A stretch of 15,939 nt of DNA from Phycisphaerae bacterium (GTDB lineage Bacteria; Planctomycetota; Phycisphaerae; Sedimentisphaerales; Anaerohalosphaeraceae). The stretch lies in contig JAIPFN010000123.1 of the NCBI GenBank assembly GCA_021736615.1, positions 1 to 15,939 of the forward strand, written 5' to 3'. The position numbers were made by a program, and so were the translations under genes. The notes beneath the pieces were generated by a model. It did no database searches. It saw only the letters and a list, made by a program, of their open reading frames with translations, and was not told the DNA's origin. Within the stretch, counting starts at the first letter, position 1. Each line of letters opens with the position of its first letter. Below, in pieces: positions 118 through 12,540 of this stretch.

Positions 118-834
118 ATGGCATTATTAAATGTAAATATCGATCATGTAGCGACTATCCGGCAGGCACGTATGACTGACGAGCCGGACCCGGTCTGGGC
201 CGCCTCAATCTGTGAGCTTGCCGGTGCCAACGGTATTACCGTGCATCTGCGCCAGGACAGACGACATATCTCCGACAGAGACGTCGAGGTCCTCAACCAG
301 ACCGTTGCAAGCAAGTTCAACCTGGAAATGTCTATAGCCGAACCGATCGTCAAGATCGCCGAAAGGATTCGCCCGGACCAGGTAACCCTGGTCCCTGAAA
401 AACGGGAGGAACTGACAACCGAGGGCGGACTGGATTGCGTCAAATACAAAAAGCAGCTTGCCGCGATAGTAAAGCGAATGCACAAAAAAGGGATCCTCGT
501 CAGCACGTTCATCACACCGGATGAAGATAATATCCTCGCATCTGCCGAGATCGGCTGTGACGCGGTCGAACTGCACACGGGAGCCTACTCAAACGCAAAG
601 ACAGACAAGGCAATAGAAAAAACTCTTAACGCACTACGCGACGGACGCGACATGGCGATGACAAGCGGAATGATCGTCCACGCCGGCCACGGACTGACAT
701 ACAGGAACATCGCACCGGTAGCAAAAATTGAAGGACTCTGCGAATTCAACATAGGACACAGCATAATCTCTAGAGCGGTCCTTGTAGGATTGAAACAGGC
801 AACAAAAGAAATGTTAAAAGCGATTAGCGATTAG
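118..834 (+). CDS. pdxJ: Pyridoxine 5'-phosphate synthase PdxJ
   Basis: PdxJ is the cytoplasmic TIM-barrel enzyme that condenses 1-deoxyxylulose 5-phosphate with 3-amino-2-oxopropyl phosphate to give pyridoxine 5'-phosphate, the last ring-forming step of DXP-dependent vitamin B6 synthesis. The 238-residue protein has the normal length and family motifs: NIDHVATIRQAR at residues 7-18, HLRQDRRH at 43-50 with the phosphate/active-site His43, Arg45 and His50, Glu70 in FNLEMS, VELHTGAYS near 150-158, HAGHGLTYRN at 188-197 with His191, and EFNIGHSIISRA near the C-terminus. The ATG at 118 follows AGGGA with 6-base spacing. The last codons and the TAG stop lie inside a heptamer tandem repeat (820-854) that continues into the spacer before dapA, so the terminal Ile-Ser-Asp is repeat-encoded. 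dapA follows 35 bases later on the same strand, so the two are probably co-transcribed. Confidence 0.97.
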   Translation: MALLNVNIDHVATIRQARMTDEPDPVWAASICELAGANGITVHLRQDRRHISDRDVEVLNQTVASKFNLEMSIAEPIVKIAERIRPDQVTLVPEKREELTTEGGLDCVKYKKQLAAIVKRMHKKGILVSTFITPDEDNILASAEIGCDAVELHTGAYSNAKTDKAIEKTLNALRDGRDMAMTSGMIVHAGHGLTYRNIAPVAKIEGLCEFNIGHSIISRAVLVGLKQATKEMLKAISD

Positions 835-854
835 CAATTAGCAATTAGCTAAAA
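820..854 (+). repeat. Heptamer array at the pdxJ-dapA junction
   Basis: Five 7-base units are seen: GCGATTA (820-826), GCGATTA (827-833), GCAATTA (834-840), GCAATTA (841-847) and the degenerate GCTAAAA (848-854). The array begins inside pdxJ, supplies its stop codon (TAG, 832-834), and runs straight into the dapA ribosome binding site AAGGAG (855-860). No flanking hairpins are visible, unlike the three bracketed arrays elsewhere in the window. Confidence 0.85.
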
Positions 855-1739: not shown

Positions 1740-1742
1740 AAT

Positions 1743-1823
1743 CAAACTGACCTATCGGCCAGTTTGAGAATTACGAATTACGAATTACGAATTACGAATT
1801 TAGGTTTCGGCCTGGCGGCCGAG
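1743..1823 (+). repeat. Hairpin-bracketed heptamer element, copy 1
   Basis: Hairpin A has arms CAAACTGACC (1743-1752) and GGCCAGTTTG (1757-1766), with loop TATC and one A/C mismatch. Four perfect AATTACG units (1769-1796) follow, then a degenerate AATTTAG (1797-1803). Hairpin B has arms TTCGGCC (1806-1812) and GGCCGAG (1817-1823), with loop TGGC and a G/T wobble at the base. Forty bases separate hairpin A from the TCGGCC core of B. The same layout recurs at 9848-9928, and inverted at 11282-11358. Confidence 0.85.
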
Positions 1824-1836
1824 GCATTTTCATAAC

Positions 1837-1873
1837 AAACGGCAGTTACGATATCGAATTGTGACTGCCGTTT
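1837..1873. promoter_or_regulatory. 13-bp inverted repeat abutting a -10 box
   Basis: The left arm AAACGGCAGTTAC (1837-1849) pairs with GTGACTGCCGTTT (1861-1873), with one G/T wobble and an 11-base loop. The right arm touches TATAAT (1873-1878), the likely -10 box of the nucleotidyltransferase gene; I see no good -35 box. It could be an operator overlapping the promoter, or a terminator for dapA transcripts, although the T-tract after the stem is interrupted (TTTATAATATTT). Confidence 0.5.
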
Positions 1874-1878
1874 ATAAT
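1873..1878 (+). promoter_or_regulatory. -10 box upstream of the nucleotidyltransferase gene
   Basis: This is a perfect TATAAT ending 22 bases before the ATG at 1901. A transcript starting near 1885 would retain the ribosome binding site AAGGA (1889-1893). The -35 region falls inside the inverted repeat and does not match the consensus. Confidence 0.45.
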
Positions 1879-1900
1879 ATTTAATCTTAAGGATTTCGAC

Positions 1901-2818
1901 ATGGCGAACCAGACCAAACCATCTTTACTCGTTCTTGCAGCCGGTATGGGGAGCCGCTACGGCGGGCTTAAACAGATCGACCCTATCGGTCCCAGCGGCG
2001 AAGCTATTATAGAGTATTCAATGTATGACGCGGTTAAGGCCGGGTTTGGCAAAATCGTCTTTGTAATCCGGCAGTCATTCGAGCAGGCGTTCAAGGATAT
2101 GATCGGCGACAAGCTCGACGGTTTGTGCGAGGTTCAGTACGTCTACCAGGAACTGGACAGATCGCTCGGCGATTTTGAACTTCCCGAAGGCCGCGAAAAA
2201 CCCTGGGGCACCGGACATGCGATACTCGTCGCAGCCGATGTAATCAACGAGCCGTTCGCGGTCATTAACGCCGACGATTTTTACGGGGGGTACTCATACA
2301 AAGCCATCGCCGAATACCTGACCAAGGCAGCGGGCGAAAACGACTACTGTATGGTCGGGTATACGCTGAGCAATACACTGTCTGAAAACGGAACGGTATC
2401 ACGCGGTGTCTGTGAATGTGACAGCGATGGGAACCTGCTCAACGTGTCCGAACATACGAAGATCGGCATGGCCGATGGAGTGGTATGCGGTCTTGATGAC
2501 ACCGGAAAAGAAATAACACTAACAGGAAAAGAACCGGTATCTATGAACCTGTGGGGATTCGGGCCTTCAATTTTCGGTCATCTGAAAACCCGGTTTGACC
2601 GGTTCCTCGCCGAACACGGCAATGAAGAAAAATCGGAATTCTACATCCCATTCGTCGTCGACGAACTGATCAAACAGTCCATCGCAAAAGTCAAAGTACT
2701 CAAATCCGAGGCAAGCTGGTTCGGTGTAACATACCCCGACGACAAACCGGCAGTAGTAGCCAAAGTAGCAGAACTGGTCGAAAACAGCCTCTACCCAAAG
2801 AATCTCTGGGAAAAATAA
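1901..2818 (+). CDS. Nucleotidyltransferase family protein (sugar-nucleotide type)
   Basis: This 305-residue cytoplasmic protein belongs to the GT-A-fold NTP-transferase family, which transfers a nucleoside monophosphate to a sugar phosphate or similar acceptor. The N-terminal signature LAAGMGSRYGGLKQ at residues 12-25 is the nucleotide-binding loop (G-X-G-S-R-Y-GG-K). WGTGHAI and the metal-binding VINADDFYG follow at mid-length, the latter supplying the acidic Mg-binding residues. VSMNLWGFGPSIF is typical of this subfamily. The ATG at 1901 follows AAGGA (1889-1893) at 7-base spacing. It stands alone between the copy 1 repeat element and a promoter-bearing spacer. The acceptor cannot be named from sequence; the YGGLKQ form is often annotated only as a nucleotidyltransferase and is distinct from classical GlmU, RfbA or GalU. 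Confidence 0.85.
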   Translation: MANQTKPSLLVLAAGMGSRYGGLKQIDPIGPSGEAIIEYSMYDAVKAGFGKIVFVIRQSFEQAFKDMIGDKLDGLCEVQYVYQELDRSLGDFELPEGREKPWGTGHAILVAADVINEPFAVINADDFYGGYSYKAIAEYLTKAAGENDYCMVGYTLSNTLSENGTVSRGVCECDSDGNLLNVSEHTKIGMADGVVCGLDDTGKEITLTGKEPVSMNLWGFGPSIFGHLKTRFDRFLAEHGNEEKSEFYIPFVVDELIKQSIAKVKVLKSEASWFGVTYPDDKPAVVAKVAELVENSLYPKNLWEK

Positions 2819-2834
2819 GCAGAAAATTTTGATT

Positions 2835-2862
2835 TTGCGATTTTCGGGTTATACTTTATATA
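2835..2862 (+). promoter_or_regulatory. Candidate sigma-70 promoter
   Basis: TTGCGA (2835-2840) and TATATA (2857-2862) are separated by 16 bases, with an overlapping alternative TATACT at 2850-2855. It lies just after the nucleotidyltransferase stop and would transcribe the small frame at 2945 and perhaps the YbaK-like gene. Confidence 0.4.
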
Positions 2863-2944
2863 GCGGGGGTTGTCCCTGCGCAAAGCAATCTGAAAATTAT
2901 ACCGTTTATACCGGTTAAACAGCAAACCGGAGATCGGGAGTTTT

Positions 2945-3139
2945 ATGCATCCAAACCGATTGCGGCAAATAGTGTCTTTCGAATGGGGTTCACACAACTC
3001 CACCAGAAGTCTTCGCCGATTCCACTTGCATATCGACCATATCATTCACGGTCGGTTTTGGCTGATAATCAGAATCATTGCCCTGTCGGCAATTATCATC
3101 CTATTATCTGTATTCGCCGCCCCGCTCCATGGGATATAA
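2945..3139 (+). CDS. Possible small single-pass membrane protein
   Basis: I do not recognise this 64-residue product. It starts with ATG after GGGAG (2936-2940), a short 4-base spacing. The N-terminal 37 residues are rich in Arg, His and Asn. They are followed by a strongly hydrophobic stretch of about 20 residues (LIIRIIALSAIIILLSVFA), consistent with one transmembrane helix and a cytoplasmic basic N-terminus. A promoter lies upstream. Against it, another frame is open across the same bases (2983-3237), and the region may simply be untranslated leader. The hydrophobic segment and start context make this the better of the frames. Confidence 0.35.
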   Translation: MHPNRLRQIVSFEWGSHNSTRSLRRFHLHIDHIIHGRFWLIIRIIALSAIIILLSVFAAPLHGI

Positions 3140-3233
3140 AAACGGACAACTTTTTTCCTCCGAACTGCCTCTGTAGTTTGGCATTATTAATTAGTGATAC
3201 TTATGAATTAAACTTTTTTCACGGAGGTGTACT

Positions 3234-3695
3234 ATGAAACTTATGGACTTTCTTAATAAGGTTTCTGCCGATTATGAAGTCACCGAGCACCTGCCAACCT
3301 TTACCAGTCAGGAACTGGCCGCCGAAGAACATATTCCGGGCATTATGGTCGCCAAACCGGTGATCGTACGAGCCGACGAGGAGTATTACATGTGTGTTTT
3401 GCCGGCATGCTACAAGATCGACTTTGACACGCTGAAGAGGCAGGTGGGCGCCGACGAAATAGAACTCGCCGACGAAAACGAAATGGCAAAACTCTTTGAC
3501 GACTGCTCACTCGGCGCTGAACCGCCCTTTGGTAGTCTGTACGGGCTTTTGACGTTTATGGACTCCAGCCTTGAAGACGACGAATATATAGTCTTCCAGG
3601 GAGGGACGCACGATAAATCGATCAAGATGGATATGGAAGATTACCTGGAACTGGCAATGCCGAGGATTTTAAGCTTCTGCTACCCATCGCTATAA
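3234..3695 (+). CDS. YbaK/prolyl-tRNA editing-domain protein
   Basis: This is a stand-alone 153-residue domain of the YbaK/ProX family, cytoplasmic enzymes that hydrolyse mischarged aminoacyl-tRNA (for example Cys-tRNAPro or Ala-tRNAPro). Lys41 in VAKPVIVR sits where the family's conserved lysine lies, GAEPPFG at residues 94-100 is the conserved glycine/proline loop, and VFQGGTHDKSIKM near the end matches the family's last strand and loop. Its length fits a single domain, so it is not part of a prolyl-tRNA synthetase. The start is supported by GGAGG (3223-3227) at 6-base spacing. The substrate cannot be assigned. It is flanked by non-coding spacers and appears monocistronic. The reading AKPVIV rather than the usual AKTLVV suggests a divergent subfamily. 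Confidence 0.8.
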   Translation: MKLMDFLNKVSADYEVTEHLPTFTSQELAAEEHIPGIMVAKPVIVRADEEYYMCVLPACYKIDFDTLKRQVGADEIELADENEMAKLFDDCSLGAEPPFGSLYGLLTFMDSSLEDDEYIVFQGGTHDKSIKMDMEDYLELAMPRILSFCYPSL

Positions 3696-3818
3696 GAAGC
3701 ACTATAAAAAGCAAAAGCCGGAAGTTGAGCGAAGTAAAGTCCGTGTGCAGGGAATTGCTGTAATGTCTCTGGTTGGCAATTCGGTCTGAAACCATATATC
3801 AGGTACTTTTTTGTTTTA

Positions 3819-4175
3819 CTAACGTAAATCTGACGGATTCCTTCTTCTGAGCCAACCTACAATCATTGTTGCGATAAAAATCGCCATGGTAACTCCAGCT
3901 GGCGGAACCGGTACCGAGCGAATCGAATCAGGCGGGGTATTGGCCAGCGGAAAGGGGAATGTCGGCTCATTCTTATTTAGCATTTCAATGTTAATGTCTT
4001 TGGCGAGTTCGGCCCTGGCAAAACTGCTGTTCTCCGGGTAAGATAGTGAGTCAAACTCATCGGCCCCCTGGCAATACGCTGCCGACCTGCCGAACAGCAA
4101 AGTAACGATTATACAGAATATAAGTCTACTGAGTCTCCTGAGACTTCTGACGAATGTCTTTTTCTCACTTTCCAT
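3819..4175 (-). CDS. Small secreted protein with PEP-CTERM-like anchor
   Basis: This 118-residue protein of unknown function has two hydrophobic ends. Residues 10-34 form a signal peptide (basic stretch, then LIFCIIVTLLFG, then small residues before QGADEF). Residues 88-112 (VPVPPAGVTM, a hydrophobic helix, then WLRRR) match the layout of exosortase sorting signals: a Pro-rich motif, a transmembrane helix and a basic cluster. The roughly 50 residues between them are acidic and Pro/Asn-rich with no recognised domain. The ATG at 4175 is preceded on the minus strand by a strong AGGGGGA site. It is divergent from hisC across a 242-base spacer. The core is very short, so the mature product may be a peptide-like surface protein. 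No exosortase gene lies in the window. The sorting-signal assignment comes from layout only. Confidence 0.65.
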   Translation of the reverse strand: MESEKKTFVRSLRRLSRLIFCIIVTLLFGRSAAYCQGADEFDSLSYPENSSFARAELAKDINIEMLNKNEPTFPFPLANTPPDSIRSVPVPPAGVTMAIFIATMIVGWLRRRNPSDLR

Positions 4176-4405
4176 CGTTTCCCCCTGACAGTTATCAACT
4201 CTATATACTAATAGGGAATCCCGGCATAAAACTTCCGGTTAGATTCATATCTGCACAACAGAAACTCCCCCTGTTTGCTGAAAACCCTCTTTATTATAAT
4301 TAGATTCGAATATTTATACTATATGCCCCTATGTCAGGTTCATTTTAAAATTACCGCCCAAAAGAAAAATTGCCGGATTATCGTGGATAAACGTAAAAAA
4401 ATGAT

Positions 4406-4411
4406 TATAAT
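4406..4411 (+). promoter_or_regulatory. -10 box of hisC, predicted leaderless
   Basis: A perfect TATAAT ends 6 bases before the hisC ATG (4418). Sigma-70 start sites usually fall 6-7 bases after the -10 box, so transcription would begin at or next to the A of the ATG. No Shine-Dalgarno sequence is present between them (CCCGGC). The -35 region is weak. Confidence 0.5.
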
Positions 4412-4417
4412 CCCGGC

Positions 4418-5467
4418 ATGAGTTATTTTAGAAACATTATAGACGAGATGGACGGTTATGTGCCCGGGTTTCAGCCTGTTGGCACTGACGTTGTTAAGCT
4501 TAATACGAACGAAAATCCGTATCCGCCCTCTCCGCAGGCCGTTGAGGCGATACGCAATTTTGACACTACTGCCCTGAAACGATACCCCCAGCCGTTCGGC
4601 GATTCATTCTGCAAAACAGCCTCCGACGTCCTCGAGGTCGAACCGGATAACCTACTATGCACTAACGGAGGCGACGATCTGCTTACGATCTGCTTTAGAT
4701 CCTTCTGCGACGAAAACCGTCACGCCGTCTTTCCCGGCCCGACATATTCGCTATACCCGGTACTGGGGAAACTGCAAAACTGCAGGACCGTCGAAATACC
4801 ATTTTCCAGTAACTACGCCCTGCCTGCCGATGAGCTTGTAGAATCCGGCGCGGCGCTGGTCATCGTCTGCAATCCCAACGCACCCAGCGGGTCGTTCATA
4901 CAACCGGCCGAGATAAAGAAACTCGCCGACCGCCTCAAAGGCAAAAGCATCCTCCTGATTGACGAAGCATACGCCGACTTCGCCGAATCCAACTGCGTAT
5001 CGCTGATCAAAGATTGTGAAAATGTGATTATTCTGCGTTCTATGAGCAAGGGCTATTCGCTAGCCGGGCTGCGATTCGGATACGCCATCGCACCGAAGGA
5101 CATTATCGCAGGACTGCGAAAGGTCAAAGACTCCTACAACGTCGACGCATTAGCGATTGCCGCAGCGGCAGCGGCTATATGGGATCAGGGGTACTTCAGG
5201 GAAAACGTAGAAAAGGTCAAAGCGGAAAGATCACGTCTGACCGCTGCCTTGAGAGAAATGCAGCTTGAGGTACCCGACAGCCAGGCAAATTTCATACTCG
5301 CCAGGTGCATCAATTCCGATGCAAGCAAAGTCCATGAAGCTCTGGCCAAACAAAACATCTATGTAAGGTACTTCAAACTCGAAGGGCTTGAAGACAAACT
5401 GCGAATAACAATAGGAACAAAAGAACAAAACGACAAGCTAATACAAGCCCTGAAAAAAATCCTGTAA
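4418..5467 (+). CDS. hisC: Histidinol-phosphate aminotransferase HisC
   Basis: HisC is a PLP-dependent fold-type I aminotransferase that converts imidazole acetol phosphate plus glutamate to histidinol phosphate. The 349-residue protein has the normal length and motifs: LNTNENPYPPSP at 28-39, TNGGDDLL at 82-89 (cofactor phosphate loop), FPGPTYSLY with Tyr110, CNPNAPSG at 151-158, IDEAYADF at 171-178 with the Asp that holds the PLP ring nitrogen, SMSKGYSLAGLRFGY at 208-222 with Schiff-base Lys211 and Arg219, and LRITIG at 328-333 with the substrate-carboxylate Arg329. It stands alone, away from any other histidine gene, so a related aromatic or broad-specificity aminotransferase role is possible. 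The ATG at 4418 has no ribosome binding site and lies 6 bases after a TATAAT. It converges with the histidine kinase gene across 35 bases. Confidence 0.9.
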   Translation: MSYFRNIIDEMDGYVPGFQPVGTDVVKLNTNENPYPPSPQAVEAIRNFDTTALKRYPQPFGDSFCKTASDVLEVEPDNLLCTNGGDDLLTICFRSFCDENRHAVFPGPTYSLYPVLGKLQNCRTVEIPFSSNYALPADELVESGAALVIVCNPNAPSGSFIQPAEIKKLADRLKGKSILLIDEAYADFAESNCVSLIKDCENVIILRSMSKGYSLAGLRFGYAIAPKDIIAGLRKVKDSYNVDALAIAAAAAAIWDQGYFRENVEKVKAERSRLTAALREMQLEVPDSQANFILARCINSDASKVHEALAKQNIYVRYFKLEGLEDKLRITIGTKEQNDKLIQALKKIL

Positions 5468-5502
5468 AGTTGTTAGCGTCTCACACCTTTATGCCTTGCT
5501 CC

Positions 5503-8500
5503 TTACGCCGAAGGCAGTTCTACATAGAAGGTCGTACCTTTTCCATACACCGATTCAAGCCGAATATCCCCATTGAGCCTTTGCAGGATACGCTTGACAA
5601 TAGTCAGCCCGATTCCCTGCCCTTCGACACCGTCGTTTGGATTTAACCTGTGAAACAGTTCGAATATTTTGCTCATGTGATTGTCAGATATCCCGATACC
5701 ATTATCCTCGATACGGTAAACAGACTTGCCGCCCTCGACACAACCGGAAATTTGTAAAACGAACTTGCGATCAAGACTTCGGTACTTGATCGCGTTATCG
5801 ATTAGATTCGTAAAAACTCTGCTTACCTGGTCGGCATCACCCATGCAATCGGGCAAATCGCCTATGTTGATCTCCGCGTGATTTTCATCCAACTGGAATT
5901 GCATGGATTTAAGCACTTCCTGCAATCGTTCTGTAATATTCAGCTTTTCAATATATATCTCTGAGGACCCCACCCTTGACACCGCCAGCAGACCATTTAG
6001 AAGAACCTTCATTTTGTCCGTGCTGGAGACAATAAACTCGACCGATTGGTGGACTTCCTCATTAAACAGCTTTTCCGCCTTCGCCTTGAAAGCTTCGTAC
6101 GTCATTTCTGTTTGCATCAAAGTCTTCAAATCATCCACGGCCTCCAAAAGCACCCCGCTGAAACCCTTAATATTCACCAGCGGCGACTTCAGGTCGTGAG
6201 AGACAGTATAGACTACGCTTTGAAGCTCTGAATTTTTAGCTTCCAAAGTCTTTAAAAGTTCTTCACGCTCAATTTCGCCTTTTTTACGTTCCGTAACATC
6301 ATGAAAGATTACCGCGAAATGACCCGCTTGCGGACTGTATGCCCTAACCTCATAATGCTTTGACAACACATGGCTGTAATTTTCAAAAAAGATCGAATTA
6401 CCACTAATCGCCACATCACCGTATTTCTCTATCCACTCAGGCTCGGTATCAGGCATAATCTCCAGTACGGTTTTGCCGACAATATCTTCAGCAGCAAGAC
6501 CGGTTAGCTTCTCAAATGCAGGATTAACATCGAGGAAACGATAATCGACCGGCTTACCATACGAGTCGCATATAATCTCATGCAGTGCCGCCCCGCTTGT
6601 CATTTCATTGAACAGACGCTTATATTTTATCTGGCTCTCCCTTAAGAGTTCTTCGGCCTTTTGACGTTCTGTAATATCCTGCGCAAAAGCAATATTATAT
6701 CCAACACCATCATACTCAAGATAGTTAACCGTCAGCTCCGCCGGATAGGTACTCTTGTCCTTGCGAACATGGACGGATTGAAATGTTAACTTCTTTTTGG
6801 TCTTAAGCTCCTGCCAATGCTTATCCCATATCTGACGAACATATTCCTGGTCGATATCACAAACGCTAAGCTTTAGAAGCTCTTGCCGACTAAATCCAAG
6901 CGAACTGCATGCCTGATCGTTAACATACGAAAAACAGGCGTCCTCAGTAATCCAGTACGCCTCAAATGCTGCCTTATCAACCGAAACCTGTGTCATATAC
7001 AACTGTTGGTTCGCCGCCCTCAACTGCTGGTCATTTGCCAGAAGCTGCTGATTGGCCGCACGTAACTGCTGCTCACTGGCAAGTAGTTTTTCCCGGGAAT
7101 TTTTCTTTTCTGTAATATCTCTGCCTACTCCCTGAAACTCCACTAACAAGCCGTCATCATCAAAGATCGCATGATTGGTCCAACTAATCCAGGCCGTTTC
7201 ACCGTTAGGCAGGCCCACCTGATACAGCCACTCCTTGACCGGGTCGTCACGAGTTAAGGACTTTAAATCTTCTTTAACAACATTCTTTTGATCTTCAAGA
7301 ACGAACTGCAAAAAAGTCTGGCCGATCAGTTCTTCCTTCTTTTTACCAAAATACCTGCAGTATGCGTCATTAACAAATGTCAACGTAAAATCCGACGAAC
7401 TACGGTAGATCAATTCCGTCTGGTCCTGAACTATCGCGCGATAAAGCTTGCGGCTTTCTTCAAGTTCTGCTGTTCGATTGGCAACAAGATTCCGGAGATG
7501 CCTGTTAATCAGATAACCTGAAAAACCTGCAACAAAAACACCGCCCAGGACTCCAAGCAAAACCAACAAATAATGATAATCAGCCTTCTGATCAGGGTCA
7601 TAAATAAAACCATCAAGGGAATAATCTCCATCCATCATACCAAGCTCAACATAAGTATCGGCGATCCGCTTCCATCGACCAGAATTGATGTGCCCAATCT
7701 CAACAAGGTCTGGAAGCATTAACTTATTAATGCATTTAAACTCATTAAGCATATACTCACGTGTACTTTTCGATTTATAGTTATTCTGTATAACATCCAT
7801 GATCTCTTCAGGATTTTTCATTGCATATTCCCATCCTCGCAATGATGCCCGACGAAAAGCTCTGACGCGTTCAGGATGTTCGGAGAGTTCCTTTTCCGAA
7901 GTAAACAAACAATCCCCGTAGAAATCAACTCCATATTTGATCGGCTTGAGTATTATACTTTCTATTCCTCGTTTTTTTAATTCTAACGGCTGGTCGGTAA
8001 TATAAGCGTGAATAGCATCTACCTTACCGTCTATTAAATCATTTATGTCCCATGACAATTCCATGATTTTTAAACTATCGAGATCAACCCCTTCGCTGAT
8101 AAGCATAGCCCGAAGTTCAGCAGAACTGTCTAATCGCCACATCACTTTTCTTCCTGACAGATCTTGCGGTGAATGAATATTAGAGTCGGCTCTTGCAAGA
8201 ATTATCTGAGGCGAATGCTGGAATATTACCGCCAGCACCACAACCGGCTTACCCTGATTGCGGGCAATCAGAAGCTCAGGCATCTCAACACCATACTCTG
8301 CGCGGCCGGAGACTACTTCGTCTATAAAATTCATTCCCGGATGACCCTCTGCAATCGTCACATCAAGCCCGGCATCGCGGTAAAAACCTTTCTCTACAGC
8401 TGCATAATAACCGGCAAAATTAAACTGATGAAGCCATTTCAGTTGAAGACGAACTTTTTCGAGTTTGGCGGGTGATTTTTCCTCAGCGGACGCCAAGGGT

Positions 8501-8547
8501 GATAAAGCGATGATTGTCAATAAAACAAAGACCAGAGGTTTTTTCAT
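5503..8547 (-). CDS. NMT1/THI5-type sensor histidine kinase with three PAS domains
   Basis: This 1014-residue membrane sensor kinase has a signal peptide (1-21), a periplasmic NMT1/THI5-like (SsuA-type) solute-binding domain at about 30-305 (VRLQLKWLHQFNFAGYYAA, GHPGMNFIDEVVSG) and a transmembrane helix at about 326-347. Three PAS domains follow (about 367-480, 523-628 and 643-755), two ending in DITE. The HisKA domain has phospho-acceptor His784 in VSHDLKSP; the HATPase domain has NLIDNAIKY (914-922), DNGIGI (948-953) and GQGIGLTIV (976-984). Between PAS1 and PAS2, residues 493-520 are four heptads (QQLRAAN, QQLLAND, QQLRAAN, QQLYMTQ), a coiled-coil linker. No receiver domain is attached and no response regulator is adjacent, so it is an orphan kinase. 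The ligand may be a thiamine-pyrimidine-like or sulfonate-type small molecule, but the fold does not fix it. On the minus strand AAGGA precedes the ATG at 8-base spacing. Confidence 0.9.
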   Translation of the reverse strand: MKKPLVFVLLTIIALSPLASAEEKSPAKLEKVRLQLKWLHQFNFAGYYAAVEKGFYRDAGLDVTIAEGHPGMNFIDEVVSGRAEYGVEMPELLIARNQGKPVVVLAVIFQHSPQIILARADSNIHSPQDLSGRKVMWRLDSSAELRAMLISEGVDLDSLKIMELSWDINDLIDGKVDAIHAYITDQPLELKKRGIESIILKPIKYGVDFYGDCLFTSEKELSEHPERVRAFRRASLRGWEYAMKNPEEIMDVIQNNYKSKSTREYMLNEFKCINKLMLPDLVEIGHINSGRWKRIADTYVELGMMDGDYSLDGFIYDPDQKADYHYLLVLLGVLGGVFVAGFSGYLINRHLRNLVANRTAELEESRKLYRAIVQDQTELIYRSSSDFTLTFVNDAYCRYFGKKKEELIGQTFLQFVLEDQKNVVKEDLKSLTRDDPVKEWLYQVGLPNGETAWISWTNHAIFDDDGLLVEFQGVGRDITEKKNSREKLLASEQQLRAANQQLLANDQQLRAANQQLYMTQVSVDKAAFEAYWITEDACFSYVNDQACSSLGFSRQELLKLSVCDIDQEYVRQIWDKHWQELKTKKKLTFQSVHVRKDKSTYPAELTVNYLEYDGVGYNIAFAQDITERQKAEELLRESQIKYKRLFNEMTSGAALHEIICDSYGKPVDYRFLDVNPAFEKLTGLAAEDIVGKTVLEIMPDTEPEWIEKYGDVAISGNSIFFENYSHVLSKHYEVRAYSPQAGHFAVIFHDVTERKKGEIEREELLKTLEAKNSELQSVVYTVSHDLKSPLVNIKGFSGVLLEAVDDLKTLMQTEMTYEAFKAKAEKLFNEEVHQSVEFIVSSTDKMKVLLNGLLAVSRVGSSEIYIEKLNITERLQEVLKSMQFQLDENHAEINIGDLPDCMGDADQVSRVFTNLIDNAIKYRSLDRKFVLQISGCVEGGKSVYRIEDNGIGISDNHMSKIFELFHRLNPNDGVEGQGIGLTIVKRILQRLNGDIRLESVYGKGTTFYVELPSA

Positions 8548-8890
8548 TATGCTAATCCTTGATTCCTACAGCAGCCAATACTGATACTGAAAACAAATCA
8601 GACAATAAGACCGATCATTATTCAAAAACCACACTTTGAGCATAATACGAGCCAAAATAAAAAACAATACCATGTATACTTGATATTATAAATTCGAAAA
8701 GCCGGTTCATCAACAATAAAATATTTTTTTTATAGACAAATTAAATACACAACATGTGCCCTTTGCCGGCAATAAAATAATATCTGTCAATCATATTACT
8801 TCTCAACTAACCAATTAAACCTGCCGATTTAATACATATGAAAATTGGGGAGATTCCTTTCCTTAGACTTATTAAACGGGGGATCAATAA
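8548..8890. other. 343-base AT-rich divergent spacer, no gene seen
   Basis: The spacer separates the divergent kinase and prepilin genes. It is clearly more AT-rich than the flanking coding DNA, with A/T runs near 8700-8750. TATAAT-like hexamers occur on the minus strand around 8685-8692, and near 8651 as TATTAT, but no convincing -35/-10 pair stands out. GGGGGA just before 8891 is the ribosome binding site of the first prepilin gene. No reading frame, tRNA or repeat is recognised. Confidence 0.5.
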
Positions 8891-9340
8891 ATGCTATACC
8901 GTACAAAAAAGGGTTTTACTCTTATTGACGTAATCATTTCGGTGGTGATTTTGATCGTCGCTATCAGCGGGGCAATACAGTTCAGATACCATGCGGCCAT
9001 CCAGACAAGAAAAGCAAATATGCGCACCTCCGCTGCCGAGCTTGCGCTCATGCTCGTCGAGACATGGCGCGGAGTTGACGGCGATGACGCTTTCGACGCA
9101 ATAGACCACTACGCTCCGGAGCTGACCGTAACTTCGTCGGCCGGTCCTTCCATGCCGTCCGGGTATAATTGGCTCGGAAGTTACGCGATAGAATGGAACG
9201 ATTACGATTACACGGCAACTCTGTCGTCAAGAAACATCGGCGGCGGCCTTAAAGCTCTCAACGTCATAGTCGCCTGGCCGTACGGCAATAGCAATGCTGA
9301 CAAAGAATACAGGATAACGTCTTATGCGGATACAAATTAG
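8891..9340 (+). CDS. Prepilin-like protein with Asp at position +5
   Basis: This 149-residue type IV prepilin/pseudopilin-like protein has a short basic leader (MLYRTKKG) and a prepilin peptidase site after Gly8. The mature end FTLIDVIISVVILIVAI forms the usual hydrophobic N-terminal helix. The conserved Glu at mature position +5 is Asp13 here, a conservative but uncommon change. The remainder is a small, probably beta-rich periplasmic domain that I do not recognise. The ATG at 8891 follows a GGGGGA site. The next gene overlaps its end by 17 bases, so the two are translationally coupled. The position suggests a minor pilin or GspI/GspH-like pseudopilin, but no secretion ATPase, platform protein or secretin is in the window to prove the system type. 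Confidence 0.8.
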   Translation: MLYRTKKGFTLIDVIISVVILIVAISGAIQFRYHAAIQTRKANMRTSAAELALMLVETWRGVDGDDAFDAIDHYAPELTVTSSAGPSMPSGYNWLGSYAIEWNDYDYTATLSSRNIGGGLKALNVIVAWPYGNSNADKEYRITSYADTN

Positions 9341-9845
9341 AAATGCCGGAACCGGTAACAGAAAAAAATCCGCCTTTACATTGATTGAGCTTATGGTAAC
9401 GCTATTGATCTCGGCGATCATAATATCTGCGGTGGGCGTGATGGTCTCTGACTCGAGCGGATGGTTTTCCGACAGCTACGAAAAGATATATTCTCAGCCT
9501 GCCGTCGAAAGTCTGCTCGCCAGAAAAACTTTCGAGGCGGTCATACGTCAATCGTCTGACATCGGCCTTGAGATCAGCCCTGACGGAAGTTCTGCCGAGA
9601 TATACTATTACAGTTCGCCGGCTAACCCGCTTGACAGCTATGCCCGGTTTTACGTCACCGGCACCGACCTCATTTTGGAGAAAGGTTCTATAAGCCCGTC
9701 GGCAACAACTTCCACAGAAACAGTATGCCGAAACGTATCGCAATGCACTTTCAAAGCAGCGGGCTCTTCCGTGCAGATGATACTGATTTTAGACGATGGA
9801 AAGAACAAACAAGGATCGGTAACCTCAGCGATCCTGCACAATTAA
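9324..9845 (+). CDS. Prepilin-like protein, GspJ/minor-pilin type
   Basis: This 173-residue protein has a basic leader, a prepilin signature KKSAFTLIELMVTLLIS and the expected Glu22 at mature position +5. The residue before the cleavage site is Ala17 rather than the usual Gly. The hydrophobic helix continues to about residue 42. The C-terminal part, with alternating polar and hydrophobic strands, suggests a minor pseudopilin, closest in outline to GspJ. It overlaps the preceding prepilin gene by 17 bases; AGGAT (9310-9314) lies about 9 bases before the ATG. A hairpin-bracketed heptamer element begins just 2 bases after its stop codon. It probably works with the neighbouring prepilin and PilX-like proteins as a minor-pilin complex at the inner membrane. 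Confidence 0.8.
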   Translation: MRIQIRNAGTGNRKKSAFTLIELMVTLLISAIIISAVGVMVSDSSGWFSDSYEKIYSQPAVESLLARKTFEAVIRQSSDIGLEISPDGSSAEIYYYSSPANPLDSYARFYVTGTDLILEKGSISPSATTSTETVCRNVSQCTFKAAGSSVQMILILDDGKNKQGSVTSAILHN

Positions 9846-9847
9846 CT

Positions 9848-9928
9848 CAAACTGACCGAATCGGTCAGTTTGCAGGGTTTAGGGGTTAGGGGTTAGAGGT
9901 TAGGGAATGATTCGGCCAAAAGGCCGAG
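9848..9928 (+). repeat. Hairpin-bracketed heptamer element, copy 2 (G-rich)
   Basis: Hairpin A is perfect here: CAAACTGACCG (9848-9858) and CGGTCAGTTTG (9862-9872), with a 3-base loop. The heptamers are GGGTTTA (9875-9881), GGGGTTA (9882-9888), GGGGTTA (9889-9895), GAGGTTA (9896-9902) and a partial GGGAATG (9903-9909). Hairpin B has TTCGGCC (9911-9917) and GGCCGAG (9922-9928) with loop AAAA. The spacing from A to the TCGGCC core of B is 39 bases. The G-runs satisfy a loose G-quadruplex pattern on the coding strand. Confidence 0.85.
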
Positions 9929-9976
9929 GTTATTTTTATATAAAAAAATCCGAAGCGCAAGCTCAGGAATAAAACC

Positions 9977-11212
9977 ATGAAAATTCAAAATAAACTGCGG
10001 GACATAAAAATGAACAGAAAAAACAAAAACAGAAATTCAGGTTTCGCGATGGCGATGGTACTTTCGGTAATCGTACTGCTGCTTTTGCTCGGCGGAAGTT
10101 TACTCGGCCTTTCACAAAACGCGGAAATAGCATCGATCAGACGTTCACAGGAAATCGCCGCGAAATGCGCCGCAGACGCAGGGATGACAAAAGTGATGTC
10201 CGATCTGAAGACCGCCTACGAGACTGGAACTCTGGACTTGAACAACCTGCCGTCGGAGTTCGCAGTAGATATCGAAAACTTCGACGCAAACTTCGGATAT
10301 ATAGTCTATCTGGACTCAACGGGAAATATTATGATCGACAGTACAGGATCAGCAGGACCATCCGACAAAACAGTTCACTGCAGAGTCGATGTTTACTCAA
10401 GCCGATTCGAATACACACTTTTCGCAGACAACTTTGATATCCAAAACAACGCTTACATCGACGGGTACAATTCCGACTTTGGACCTTACGGCGGAATAAA
10501 TGTTTGCAGTATTTCAATAGGAACAAACAACACCGAAAACAACGCAATAGAACTTGATAATAACGGCTATATCAATGGAGATATTTTCGTCGGACCAGGC
10601 AGTGACCCTTCCAAAGTAATCAACGGAGGTAAGCACTTTGATGTAACCGGGGAGATTTCAGCAGCTGAGGAAGAAAAGAACACACCCATAGTCGCCCCGC
10701 CTTCACTGGATTACAAAGGATCGAGCCCGTCAGGAACCGTAACCGAAAACGGCAGATATAGCGAGATCGTAATGGGCAACGGAGAAACCGTAACTATCGA
10801 TGGCGAGATAACCCTTCGCATCGAAGGTAATGTAGAACTGGACAACAATGCTGAAATCGAAATCACAGAAGGCTCATCACTGACTCTTTTTATTGACGGC
10901 ACTTTCAAAATGTCCAACGGAGGAAAGATAAACAACATCACCCAGAAACCGCCTCACTGTATAATATTCAGCACGGCAACCAGCGAAGTTGAGTACTGTT
11001 TTGACAATATCGGCGTGTTTTACGGAGCACTCTACGCCCCAAACGCGAAAGTTGAGATCAAGAATAACGCAATAATATACGGAGCGATCCTGGGCAAAGA
11101 ACTGCAAATCGACAATTCCACAGAGATATATGGAGACAAAGCACTTTTAAATTTAAAAGGGACATTCAACGATCCAGACACTACACTGGTGAAAGGAAAG
11201 TGGTGGGAATGA
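9977..11212 (+). CDS. PilX-like prepilin with large beta-repeat domain
   Basis: This 411-residue protein has a prepilin-like N-terminus: a basic leader, then SGFAMAMVLSVIVLLLLLGG, with a candidate cleavage after Gly22. It lacks the +5 Glu, as do PilX-type and GspK-type minor pilins. After a helical region to about residue 90 comes a long beta-rich C-terminal part with recurring motifs such as IQNNAYIDG, ELDNNGYINGD, NVELDNNAEIEI and VEIKNNAIIYGAILG. This pattern resembles a right-handed beta-solenoid of the kind attached to PilX-like proteins (DUF7305-type, from memory). Two in-frame starts have ribosome binding sites: 9977 (AGGAA) and 10010 (CGGGA). The latter gives a leader of normal length, MNRKNKNRNSG. 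It lies on the same strand as the two prepilins but is separated from them by the copy 2 repeat element. Confidence 0.75.
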   Translation: MKIQNKLRDIKMNRKNKNRNSGFAMAMVLSVIVLLLLLGGSLLGLSQNAEIASIRRSQEIAAKCAADAGMTKVMSDLKTAYETGTLDLNNLPSEFAVDIENFDANFGYIVYLDSTGNIMIDSTGSAGPSDKTVHCRVDVYSSRFEYTLFADNFDIQNNAYIDGYNSDFGPYGGINVCSISIGTNNTENNAIELDNNGYINGDIFVGPGSDPSKVINGGKHFDVTGEISAAEEEKNTPIVAPPSLDYKGSSPSGTVTENGRYSEIVMGNGETVTIDGEITLRIEGNVELDNNAEIEITEGSSLTLFIDGTFKMSNGGKINNITQKPPHCIIFSTATSEVEYCFDNIGVFYGALYAPNAKVEIKNNAIIYGAILGKELQIDNSTEIYGDKALLNLKGTFNDPDTTLVKGKWWE

Positions 11213-11280
11213 TCTTTTTTTGGATTTTTTATATTTTTTTAGTGGCATGCGCCTTTTTTTGGTGTAAATTATAATATAGT
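11213..11280 (+). terminator. T-rich tract after the PilX-like gene, possible terminator
   Basis: Several T-runs follow the stop codon (T7 soon after 11213, and later T6-T7 runs). The last T7 (11254-11260) follows a very short stem, GGC/GCC around loop ATGC. The stem is too weak to be a convincing intrinsic terminator. The TATAAT at 11270-11275 could instead be a -10 box for the downstream gene. Confidence 0.3.
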
Positions 11281-11281
11281 T

Positions 11282-11358
11282 TCGGCCTTGGGCCGATTCC
11301 TTAATTAGTAATTCGTAATTAGTAATTTCTAATTCCAAACTGACCGCAGGGCAGTTTG
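11282..11358 (-). repeat. Hairpin-bracketed heptamer element, copy 3 (inverted)
   Basis: Read on the minus strand, hairpin A comes first: CAAACTG (11358-11352) pairs with CAGTTTG (11342-11336), with one internal mismatch and a 3-base loop. The heptamers GAATTAG, AAATTAC, TAATTAC, GAATTAC and TAATTAA (11335-11301) follow. Hairpin B is TCGGCC / GGCCGA (11296-11282) with a 3-base loop. The inner spacing is 39 bases. Its heptamer consensus GAATTAC equals that of copy 1 in the same relative orientation, so the whole module is inverted relative to copies 1 and 2. Confidence 0.85.
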
Positions 11359-11448
11359 ATCACAGTACTCGGTTCGGGGACGGCGAATACGTTTGAGACA
11401 CTTTTATTAAGTAACATTTCAGGTTATTTTAAGAAAGAGAGGTTTTTC

Positions 11449-12540
11449 ATGTTTTCGTCTCGTTTATTGCCGGTCATTTGCATCGTTCTTCTGCTCACTT
11501 GTTTTTCCCATGCAGGTCTTATCGGCAGTTCCTATCCCGACGGCAAAGTTACCGAAATCATGAAGGTTGACGGCGGCGGCGATTTTCGCTGCAGAATATC
11601 CGGCAAGTCCCTCATCGCCGGTGCCCGCCTGAGAGTTCATGTACGCGGCGCAGATTCAATCTCAAATGCTGATGAGGCCAAAGCTTTTACCGAGGCCGCG
11701 TTTAAGGAAGCCAAGGTAATCCGGCTGACAAATGTTCGGCTGCGGAATTATTTTCGCGTCATAGCCGACGTCGATATCGACGGAAAGGACCTCGCCGATC
11801 AACTGGTCAAACAGGGCTTTGCAAAATCTGTCAAACCAGCCGCTCATGATACCGGCTCGATTAAGACAGACTCTTATTTGTCCGTGCCTAAAACCACCGC
11901 GCAAGGCACTACCCAACCGACCGGAACAAGTTTCGTCGGCAGAAAGGTCATGGCTTTACGCAAAAAAGCTATGACGAATTCTCAAATTACAAATTCAATG
12001 AACAGCTCACCCGTTGTCCTGGGCGGCGAAGGTTTTCAGCCGGACATGACTTTCGAGGAAGCTATCGACAAGATACGAAACTCTTTCAGCCCGGAACTGC
12101 CAATCGTAGTTCTATGGCCGGAGATCGAACGGAATTGTTTTGTCGAGCGGGACACGCCTATCGGCATTGAATGGAACGGAAAGATTACGGCCGGAAAGGG
12201 ACTGGAGCTATTGCTTATGTCAGTCGCCCAGAGCGGTGGAGCGGGCTTACAGTATTATGTCGACGGCGGGATCGTCACTATCGCCTCGAACAATATTAAA
12301 TTCGACAAACCCGTCATCCGCGTTTACAACGTAGCGGAACTGACATCCGTTTCGCCGGCAATGAACCGGGGGTACGGCAATCAAGGCGGATATGGCAATC
12401 AGGGAATGTACGGCAATCAAGGCATGTATGGAAATCAGGGCGGATACGGAAACCAAGGCATGTACGGAAATACACGAAACAACAGAGACAACAGAAGCAA
12501 TCGAAACAGCAGAAACAGACCCTTCTCAGGGGGAAGGTAA
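11449..12540 (+). CDS. Secreted SNase-fold protein with YGNQ repeat tail
   Basis: This 363-residue exported protein has a signal peptide (MFSSRLLPVICIVLLLTCFSHA, about 1-22). Residues 32-130 resemble a degenerate staphylococcal-nuclease (OB-fold) domain: RLRVHVRGADS matches the active-site strand and loop, and YFRVIADVDIDGKDLADQLVKQGFAK matches its C-terminal half. Arginines matching Arg35 and Arg87 seem kept, but the acidic residues matching Asp40 and Glu43 are Gly and Ser, so nuclease activity is doubtful. Residues about 185-285 (TFEEAIDKIRNSF, IVVLWPEIE, GIEWNGKITAGKGLELLL, YYVDGGIVTIAS) resemble the short secretin/TonB N-terminal (STN-like) fold. The tail holds six YGNQG-type repeats (from residue 309) and then an Asn/Arg-rich end. 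I chose the ATG at 11449 because it follows AGAGAGG at 6-base spacing and begins a clean signal peptide; an upstream TTG at 11356 lies inside the repeat element. Confidence 0.7.
   Translation: MFSSRLLPVICIVLLLTCFSHAGLIGSSYPDGKVTEIMKVDGGGDFRCRISGKSLIAGARLRVHVRGADSISNADEAKAFTEAAFKEAKVIRLTNVRLRNYFRVIADVDIDGKDLADQLVKQGFAKSVKPAAHDTGSIKTDSYLSVPKTTAQGTTQPTGTSFVGRKVMALRKKAMTNSQITNSMNSSPVVLGGEGFQPDMTFEEAIDKIRNSFSPELPIVVLWPEIERNCFVERDTPIGIEWNGKITAGKGLELLLMSVAQSGGAGLQYYVDGGIVTIASNNIKFDKPVIRVYNVAELTSVSPAMNRGYGNQGGYGNQGMYGNQGMYGNQGGYGNQGMYGNTRNNRDNRSNRNSRNRPFSGGR
11976..11996 (+). repeat. Short in-frame heptamer run inside the SNase-like gene
   Basis: GAATTCT (11976-11982), CAAATTA (11983-11989) and CAAATTC (11990-11996) are three degenerate 7-base units coding part of the Asn/Ser/Thr linker TNSQITNS. 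They resemble the AATT-type heptamers of the intergenic arrays. Three diverged units could be chance in an AT-rich linker. Confidence 0.3.
12373..12473 (+). repeat. 18-base coding repeat encoding YGNQGG/YGNQGM
   Basis: Five complete 18-base units (12373-12462) and a partial sixth (12463-12473) encode Tyr-Gly-Asn-Gln-Gly-(Gly/Met). Units 1, 3 and 5 use TAC for Tyr and CAA for Gln; units 2 and 4 use TAT and CAG. That alternation points to expansion as a 36-base dimer. Confidence 0.85.

Follow-up and report, generated by a model that had tools for sequence, protein, structure and literature searches.

What are the three short arrays of seven-base repeats on contig JAIPFN010000123.1 of a Phycisphaerae bacterium (assembly GCA_021736615.1)? 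Each copy in this 15,939-nucleotide stretch, hereafter the window, consists of a hairpin A, a tandem heptamer array and a hairpin B. A sequence-only reading had taken the copies for either a dispersed unit under structural constraint or a miniature non-autonomous mobile element. The analysis reported here suggests, with a probability of about 0.6, that they belong to a clade-specific family of miniature inverted-repeat transposable elements (MITEs) whose left half, including a hairpin B that resembles a terminator, persists at gene ends. Assignment to the MITEs rests on inverted ends and target duplications. A complete copy comprises, in order, a left inverted end, hairpin A, an exchangeable period-7 array, hairpin B with a T-rich tail and a right inverted end, and is flanked by 6-7 bp duplications.

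Elements in the window

All three copies are present, each with its hairpin A, heptamer array and hairpin B. Their parts, together with an adjacent hairpin, are as follows.

1741..1767, plus strand: element 1, left end ATCAAACTGACC (1741-1752) and hairpin A (1743-1766)
1768..1800, plus strand: element 1, heptamer array, GAATTAC x 4.7
1804..1825, plus strand: element 1, hairpin B (TCGGCC...GGCCGA, 1807-1822), then ATTTTCATAA; terminator-like match with 9 pairs
1837..1873, plus strand: terminator-like hairpin directly 3' of element 1, 16 pairs
9846..9872, plus strand: element 2, left end CTCAAACTGACC (9846-9857) and hairpin A (9848-9872)
9874..9905, plus strand: element 2, heptamer array, AGGGGTT x 4.6
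9911..9928, plus strand: element 2, hairpin B (TCGGCC...GGCCGA, 9912-9927), then GTTATTTTTA; terminator-like match with 7 pairs
11282..11296, minus strand: element 3, hairpin B (TCGGCC...GGCCGA); the flanks of this element match an empty site in the related genome G001
11302..11334, minus strand: element 3, heptamer array (AATTACT/AATTACG)
11336..11359, minus strand: element 3, hairpin A (11336-11358; minus-strand TCAAACTGCCCTGCGGTCAGTTTG)

The repeated unit is AATTACG in element 1, GGGGTTA in element 2 and a mixture of AATTACT and AATTACG in element 3. Hairpin A has perfect arms in element 2 and one mismatched pair in each of the other two. Its exact pattern (CAAACTG N4-14 CAGTTTG) occurs three times in the window, every time inside an element, and nowhere in 69 other loci (1.15 Mb including the window). 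None of 200 dinucleotide shuffles folds as stably as any of the elements (z -4.2, -4.9 and -3.6 for elements 1 to 3). Element 1 begins one base past the dapA stop codon (1737-1739) and element 2 immediately 3' of a stop codon at 9843-9845; these two are in gene-end position and element 3 is not. The gene names used here (pdxJ, dapA, galU, ybaK, hisC, mnmE and yidC) are those that we presume from the translations.

Inverted ends, target duplications and empty sites

Full-length relatives of these elements extend beyond hairpin B to a right end, GGTCAGTTTGAG, which inverts the left end, CTCAAACTGACC. Hairpin A consists of the left end joined to an inverted copy of itself. The terminal inverted repeats CTCAAACTGACC...GGTCAGTTTGAG expected of a MITE are found in the full-length relatives, and the window copies keep only the left one. 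Exact target duplications of at least 6 bp flank 19 of 49 candidate end pairs, a set that includes some mirror readings (6 bp in five cases, 7 bp in 13 and 11 bp in one). When flanks were permuted, the mean was 0.5 such cases and the maximum 4 in 2000. The 19 copies with duplications are short (149-207 bp, mostly 168-171) and non-coding as judged by length, and the family has many copies, as MITEs do. Genome G094 contains near-identical copies among the matches listed, several of them at contig ends, and locus L091 represents a nested insertion.

A second short element family in G050 (L257, L259, L261 and L266) has the same ends and another interior; 7-bp duplications can be read by eye at L257 and L266.

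Comparison with G001, a Planctomycetota metagenome-assembled genome (MAG), reveals sites with and without the element. The site of element 3 is empty in G001, where the window flanks are contiguous. Joined to one another, these window flanks carry about six bases more than G001, as a diverged duplication would; with element 3 left in, a global alignment to G001 failed to place the right flank. Conversely, the gap between a nuclease-like gene and mnmE holds an element in G001 and none in the window. Inverted ends, duplications of 6-7 bp and empty sites bear out the suggestion that the units are miniature non-autonomous mobile elements.

The same data bear on whether the elements are instead palindromes of the REP (repetitive extragenic palindromic) or BIME (bacterial interspersed mosaic element) type, moved by a Y1 transposase (TnpA-REP, RAYT). 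They do consist of short palindromes in intergenic space, and Y1 matches are more numerous in eight element-bearing genomes (1 to 7 each) than in four without a match to the family model (1, 1, 1 and 4). However, Y1 genes were found in 12 of the 12 genomes tested, including those where no element is found. Moreover, Y1 elements would not be expected to have inverted ends together with target duplications of 6-7 bp, and the full-length copies have both. This explanation is very unlikely.

Distribution of the family

The window PdxJ is 90% identical to that of VRUI01000043.1 (locus L001 of G001) and 71-81% identical to those of the next 32 loci, which come mostly from Phycisphaerae, Sedimentisphaerales or Planctomycetota MAGs. 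The gene order pdxJ-dapA-galU-ybaK is common to the window and L001. These relationships place the window in a Phycisphaerae-like genome and replace the cyanobacterial setting in which the sequence-only reading had viewed the heptamers.

A strict pattern (hairpin A, 25-45 bases, CGGCC) searched in 20 genomes gave 45 matches in G001, some sites being reported twice, and one in G002; a control pattern gave three. Strict-pattern matches occur in eight of 59 relatives of G001, with G001 itself counted. The match in G057 is a real copy read in reverse. Those in G021 and G052 look like chance occurrences, judging by their cores.

A covariance model, R1, was built from 27 copies. It was run on the 118 nearest genomes with a limit of 36 scored candidates in each; 47 of them, counting G001, match at E<=1e-3. 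In G001 all 150 scored candidates match, and the true copy number may be higher; the unit is indeed dispersed. Absence of further copies, which the sequence-only reading had named as the outcome that would speak against it, is not what was found, since there are many copies in relatives. Across the phylum, with ten candidates scored per genome and stricter filters, E<=1e-5 is reached in two of 392 genomes, G001 itself being one. As far as searched, the family looks restricted to a Sedimentisphaerales-like clade of Phycisphaerae. The exact hairpin A pattern has no match in viral contigs, and one full-length copy used as a query has none in plasmids. No report on heptanucleotides in planctomycetes, on a Planctomycet MITE or on transposition in Sedimentisphaer- taxa was found in the published literature, searched mostly without subscription papers, so that absence is unproven.

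Hairpin structure

When 93 G001 matches (92 distinct) are fitted to the model, 92.5% of the cells are paired and 15 of the 18 pairs in the two hairpins show changes on both sides. There are 71 doubly changed cells, compared to 13.1 in shuffles, none of 500 of which reach this number, and 6-19 in slid structures; the alignment was fitted to the tested structure, which favours that structure. The proposed structural constraint is supported by these changes. Across genomes the sequence of hairpin B changes and the hairpin is retained. Full-length copies have a further stem between hairpin B and the right end, seen by eye only. The hairpin at 1837..1873 in the window has a position near that of this stem and a different sequence.

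Pairing-preserving double changes in both hairpins, as well as the sense orientation behind genes described below, might be taken to mean that the elements are a structured RNA or a regulator binding site kept by selection only and never mobile. Such a history would leave unexplained the target duplications, the near-identical dispersed copies, the nested insertion and the presence or absence of copies between close relatives. A search of Rfam 15 (up to E 1) also gave no match at the elements and a single weak match elsewhere in the window. A purely selected, immobile sequence is highly improbable.

By anatomy, the family is terminator-like. Hairpin B of elements 1 and 2 has the GC-rich stem and U-rich tail of an intrinsic terminator, and the four terminator-like matches with the most G-C pairs in the window all lie in or beside these two elements. 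Hairpin A does not appear to act as an RNA of the sense strand only. One of its inner pairs is unpaired in 12 of 27 copies, and because ten of these are A-C cells that would be G-U on the opposite strand, either strand of hairpin A may be the active one.

The heptamer core

Statistics on the core are based on 116 of 200 candidate readings, which a script kept for having paired A arms, a gap of 18-56 and T-rich sequence after B. These come from 103 sites; at 13 of the sites both strands were read, which dilutes periodicity rather than creating it. Among 109 unique cores, identity at lag 7 is 0.574, compared to 0.324 in shuffles (z 32.5), and the best period is 7 in 84. Between the end of A and the centre of B there are 32-35 bases in eight of the 116 readings, 39-43 in 16, 45-48 in 71 and some other number in 21. 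Spacing between the hairpins is quantised in 7-base steps, and the fixed spacing suggested by the three window copies does not extend to the family.

Unit types vary among copies within a single genome. A crude typing of 55 G001 copies with hairpin A gave ATTGATT in 22 (which include AATG arrays containing TGATTATT), AATTAC[GT] in 18, AATGNNT in ten, GGGNTTA in one and TTAGTCG in one, with three unclassed. Other genomes use units such as AAAAATC.

Position at gene ends

Gene context was tabulated for 111 of the 150 G001 copies, a set that omits mid-ranked matches without flanks and a number of weaker second hits. On the left, the neighbouring gene has the sense orientation for 87, is antisense for 22 and is absent for two. 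In 80 copies an upstream sense stop codon is found inside the element or no more than 15 bp from its left end: 40 begin 0-15 bp after the stop, and 40 contain the end of an overlapping frame. Eighteen of these frames end nine bases in, at the TGA of CAAACTGACC. An antisense start is equally close (<=15 bp) for only seven copies. Random intergenic points fall at sense stops in 4.7% of cases, a null that is unable to score overlaps, so the like-for-like figure is 40 of 111.

Full-length copies at sense stops number two of 11 in G094, none of nine in G050, five of eight in G001 and four of eight in other genomes. Either insertion habits differ between lineages or copies at gene ends survive longer. 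Longer survival seems to us the more probable of the two.

A history can be proposed that joins these observations. A DDE-type transposase would move the element in trans. Once the element has inserted behind a gene, its hairpin B with the U-rich tail may function as an intrinsic terminator or as a stabiliser of the 3' end. The left half (A, array and B) would then be kept while the right half decays, because hairpin B serves in this role. The array presumably acts as a spacer that could lengthen, shorten or acquire another unit, either through slippage by 7 bases or through replacement of a local stretch. Under this proposal, the three window copies would be left halves of this kind.

Arrays and hairpin B without hairpin A

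Strict bracketing by two hairpins, as in the window, is not general. A script found 55 G001 copies of hairpin B with a T-rich tail and hairpin A, and 55 without A, the latter including reverse readings and diverged A arms. It classed 44 of 102 G001 copies as A-less; by eye, 19 are truly A-less, and 13 of these are at sense stops. The sequence-only reading had named independent occurrence of its hairpin arms, with random spacing, as another outcome that would speak against it. Independent occurrence proves partly true, for hairpin B, which is found with an array and without A.

The window also contains two free heptamer arrays without a counterpart in the G001 orthologues.

819..849, plus strand: free heptamer array (AGCAATT), without the element's hairpins, spanning the pdxJ stop codon
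13983..14032, minus strand: free heptamer array right after the yidC stop codon

Two pairs of gene ends that look orthologous differ in their arrays. Locus L071 of G001 has AATTACT and locus L116 of G022 has GGGAATA between kept hairpins. At L213 (G001) an A-(AATTACG)-B arrangement corresponds to (AAAAATC)-B at L117 (G022), where the B stem is different. Independent insertions at one place could have produced these differences.

The observations in this section also fit a tentative alternative, in which the heptamer array and terminator hairpin B form a native gene-end module that is basic in the clade, arises or spreads at gene 3' ends without transposition and was captured by a MITE, with hairpin A as an add-on. 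The 13 A-less copies at sense stops, the free window arrays, both of which contain or follow a stop codon, and the arrays that differ between G001 and G022 could all be explained in this way. In Xanthomonas and Nostoc, too, heptamers are described close to stop codons, as a rule with no mobile element involved, in the available part of one report (PMC4692102). In contrast, full-length copies in G094 and G050 have A, array, B and right end as a single unit with target duplications, and G001 has no insertion at the site of element 3. The native module is possible, and we consider it distinctly less probable than a MITE.

A more speculative and rather unlikely proposal is that gene 3' ends of the clade carry swappable cassettes, each a 7-base array and a terminator hairpin set against the stop codon. 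An array of a different unit would take the place of the old one between flanking hairpins that stay as they are, and a MITE could carry the cassette. The 7 bp of the target duplication and the 7-base period of the arrays would then agree for a mechanistic reason, with rounds of insertion and excision or templated copying at stop codons making the heptamers. Were this true, it could account for the frequent occurrence of heptamer arrays among bacteria.

Evidence against a MITE kept at gene ends

Several results weigh against the preferred explanation, a MITE family whose left halves are kept at gene ends. A scan for ends located the right end in none of the three window copies, and in 80 copies lacking it there is no fixed offset at which duplications are more frequent than expected (15, compared to 16.3 expected). 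Array and hairpin B without A are unexpected from a simple decayed MITE. Across the whole window, terminator-like matches are not in excess (18, compared to 19.9 in shuffles). Element 3 has a T-rich tail that belongs to the host flank. In the initial alignment, of 27 copies, covariation did not clearly exceed that of shuffles. Among G001 copies, score is not linked to stop adjacency (28 of 40 higher-scoring copies and 21 of 34 lower-scoring ones, p 0.47). Finally, few of the full-length copies in G094 and G050 (2 of 20) are located at a sense stop, and because of this, retention at gene ends is something that we infer rather than see.

The search for a mobilising gene points the same way. DDE transposases of family PF01609 (DDE_Tnp_1) account for 50 matches listed in eight genomes. 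No transposase gene with the element's ends was found near 34 of these 50 in a scan of 30 search loci and four further stretches, all from draft genomes, with one mismatch allowed. PF12762 has no match in the eight genomes. PF13612 has one, the gene of L232, and its flanks lack these ends.

Two promising carriers proved to be other insertion sequences sitting inside element copies, at L217 (about 1317-2650, within the heptamer array) and at L247 (about 788-2215, in the right half). Among end pairs 0.7-3 kb apart, the sole G001 candidate (C149) consists of separate copies around ordinary genes.

Relation to known repeats

The nearest known analogue would be the pneumococcal BOX element by architecture and SPRITE by the terminator-like part (PMC3049150); these and the following comparisons draw on the available parts of the cited reports. 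BOX elements have the form boxA-(boxB)n-boxC and, compared by architecture only, resemble the planctomycete element as modular short repeats with conserved ends, a variable tandem centre, predicted stem-loops, inverted ends and target duplications. They belong to another phylum, and their centre is made of boxB modules rather than an exchangeable 7-base unit (PMC3049150). Abutment on stop codons, as in G001, further separates the planctomycete copies from BOX. SPRITEs are short repeats shaped as Rho-independent terminators, U-rich after the stem. However, the part of the source available describes no heptamer array for them, their ends are simple AAAA/TTTT, and a target duplication is not established (PMC3049150).

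Heptamer arrays as such occur elsewhere. The GGGNATC arrays of Xanthomonas and Nostoc also prefer four units and lie near stop codons on the coding strand; they generally have no link to mobile elements, whereas the planctomycete arrays are part of one and are bracketed by hairpins (PMC4692102). Beggiatoaceae have many intergenic TAACTGA arrays, but these use a single unit type and lie mostly just upstream of start codons, and the consulted portion mentions no hairpins (PMC4679880). Geobacter metallireducens has dispersed heptanucleotide families with four or five tandem heptamers. Their units are GGGACCG or MTYCTGA, and inverted ends or target duplications go unmentioned in the section available (PMC2700814).

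Heptamer arrays in several bacterial groups have so far had no settled explanation in the parts of these reports available. Those described here form part of a mobile element found in numerous genomes of a single clade, are strongly tied to stop codons in G001, and vary in unit type from copy to copy and from one seemingly orthologous site to another. Because the arrays combine these three properties, their origin can be tested by comparing sister strains. If hairpin B is in fact a terminator, these elements would represent transposon-derived ends of transcription units in bacteria.

Other features of the window and its relatives

The gap between dapA and galU in G001 holds an unrelated large hairpin repeat (GGGTGGCACCTTCAAG...; L001 11650-11740), and R1 has no match after dapA in L001-L036. 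Between hisC and the nuclease-like gene, G001 lacks a counterpart to about 5.8 kb of the window (approximately 5468-11225) that includes a histidine-kinase-like gene, pilin-like genes and element 2. Element 3 is situated immediately beyond this stretch, in the shared flank. The gene between elements 2 and 3 has no match in G001 and distant matches (29-33% identity) in G022, G024 and G002. Heptamer arrays of other units, without the element's hairpins, are present in planctomycetes and an outgroup at L005 1829-1876, L015 6080-6166 and L063 2074-2103. An 18/36-base tandem repeat occupies window positions 12373-12471, in the C-terminal part of the nuclease-like gene.

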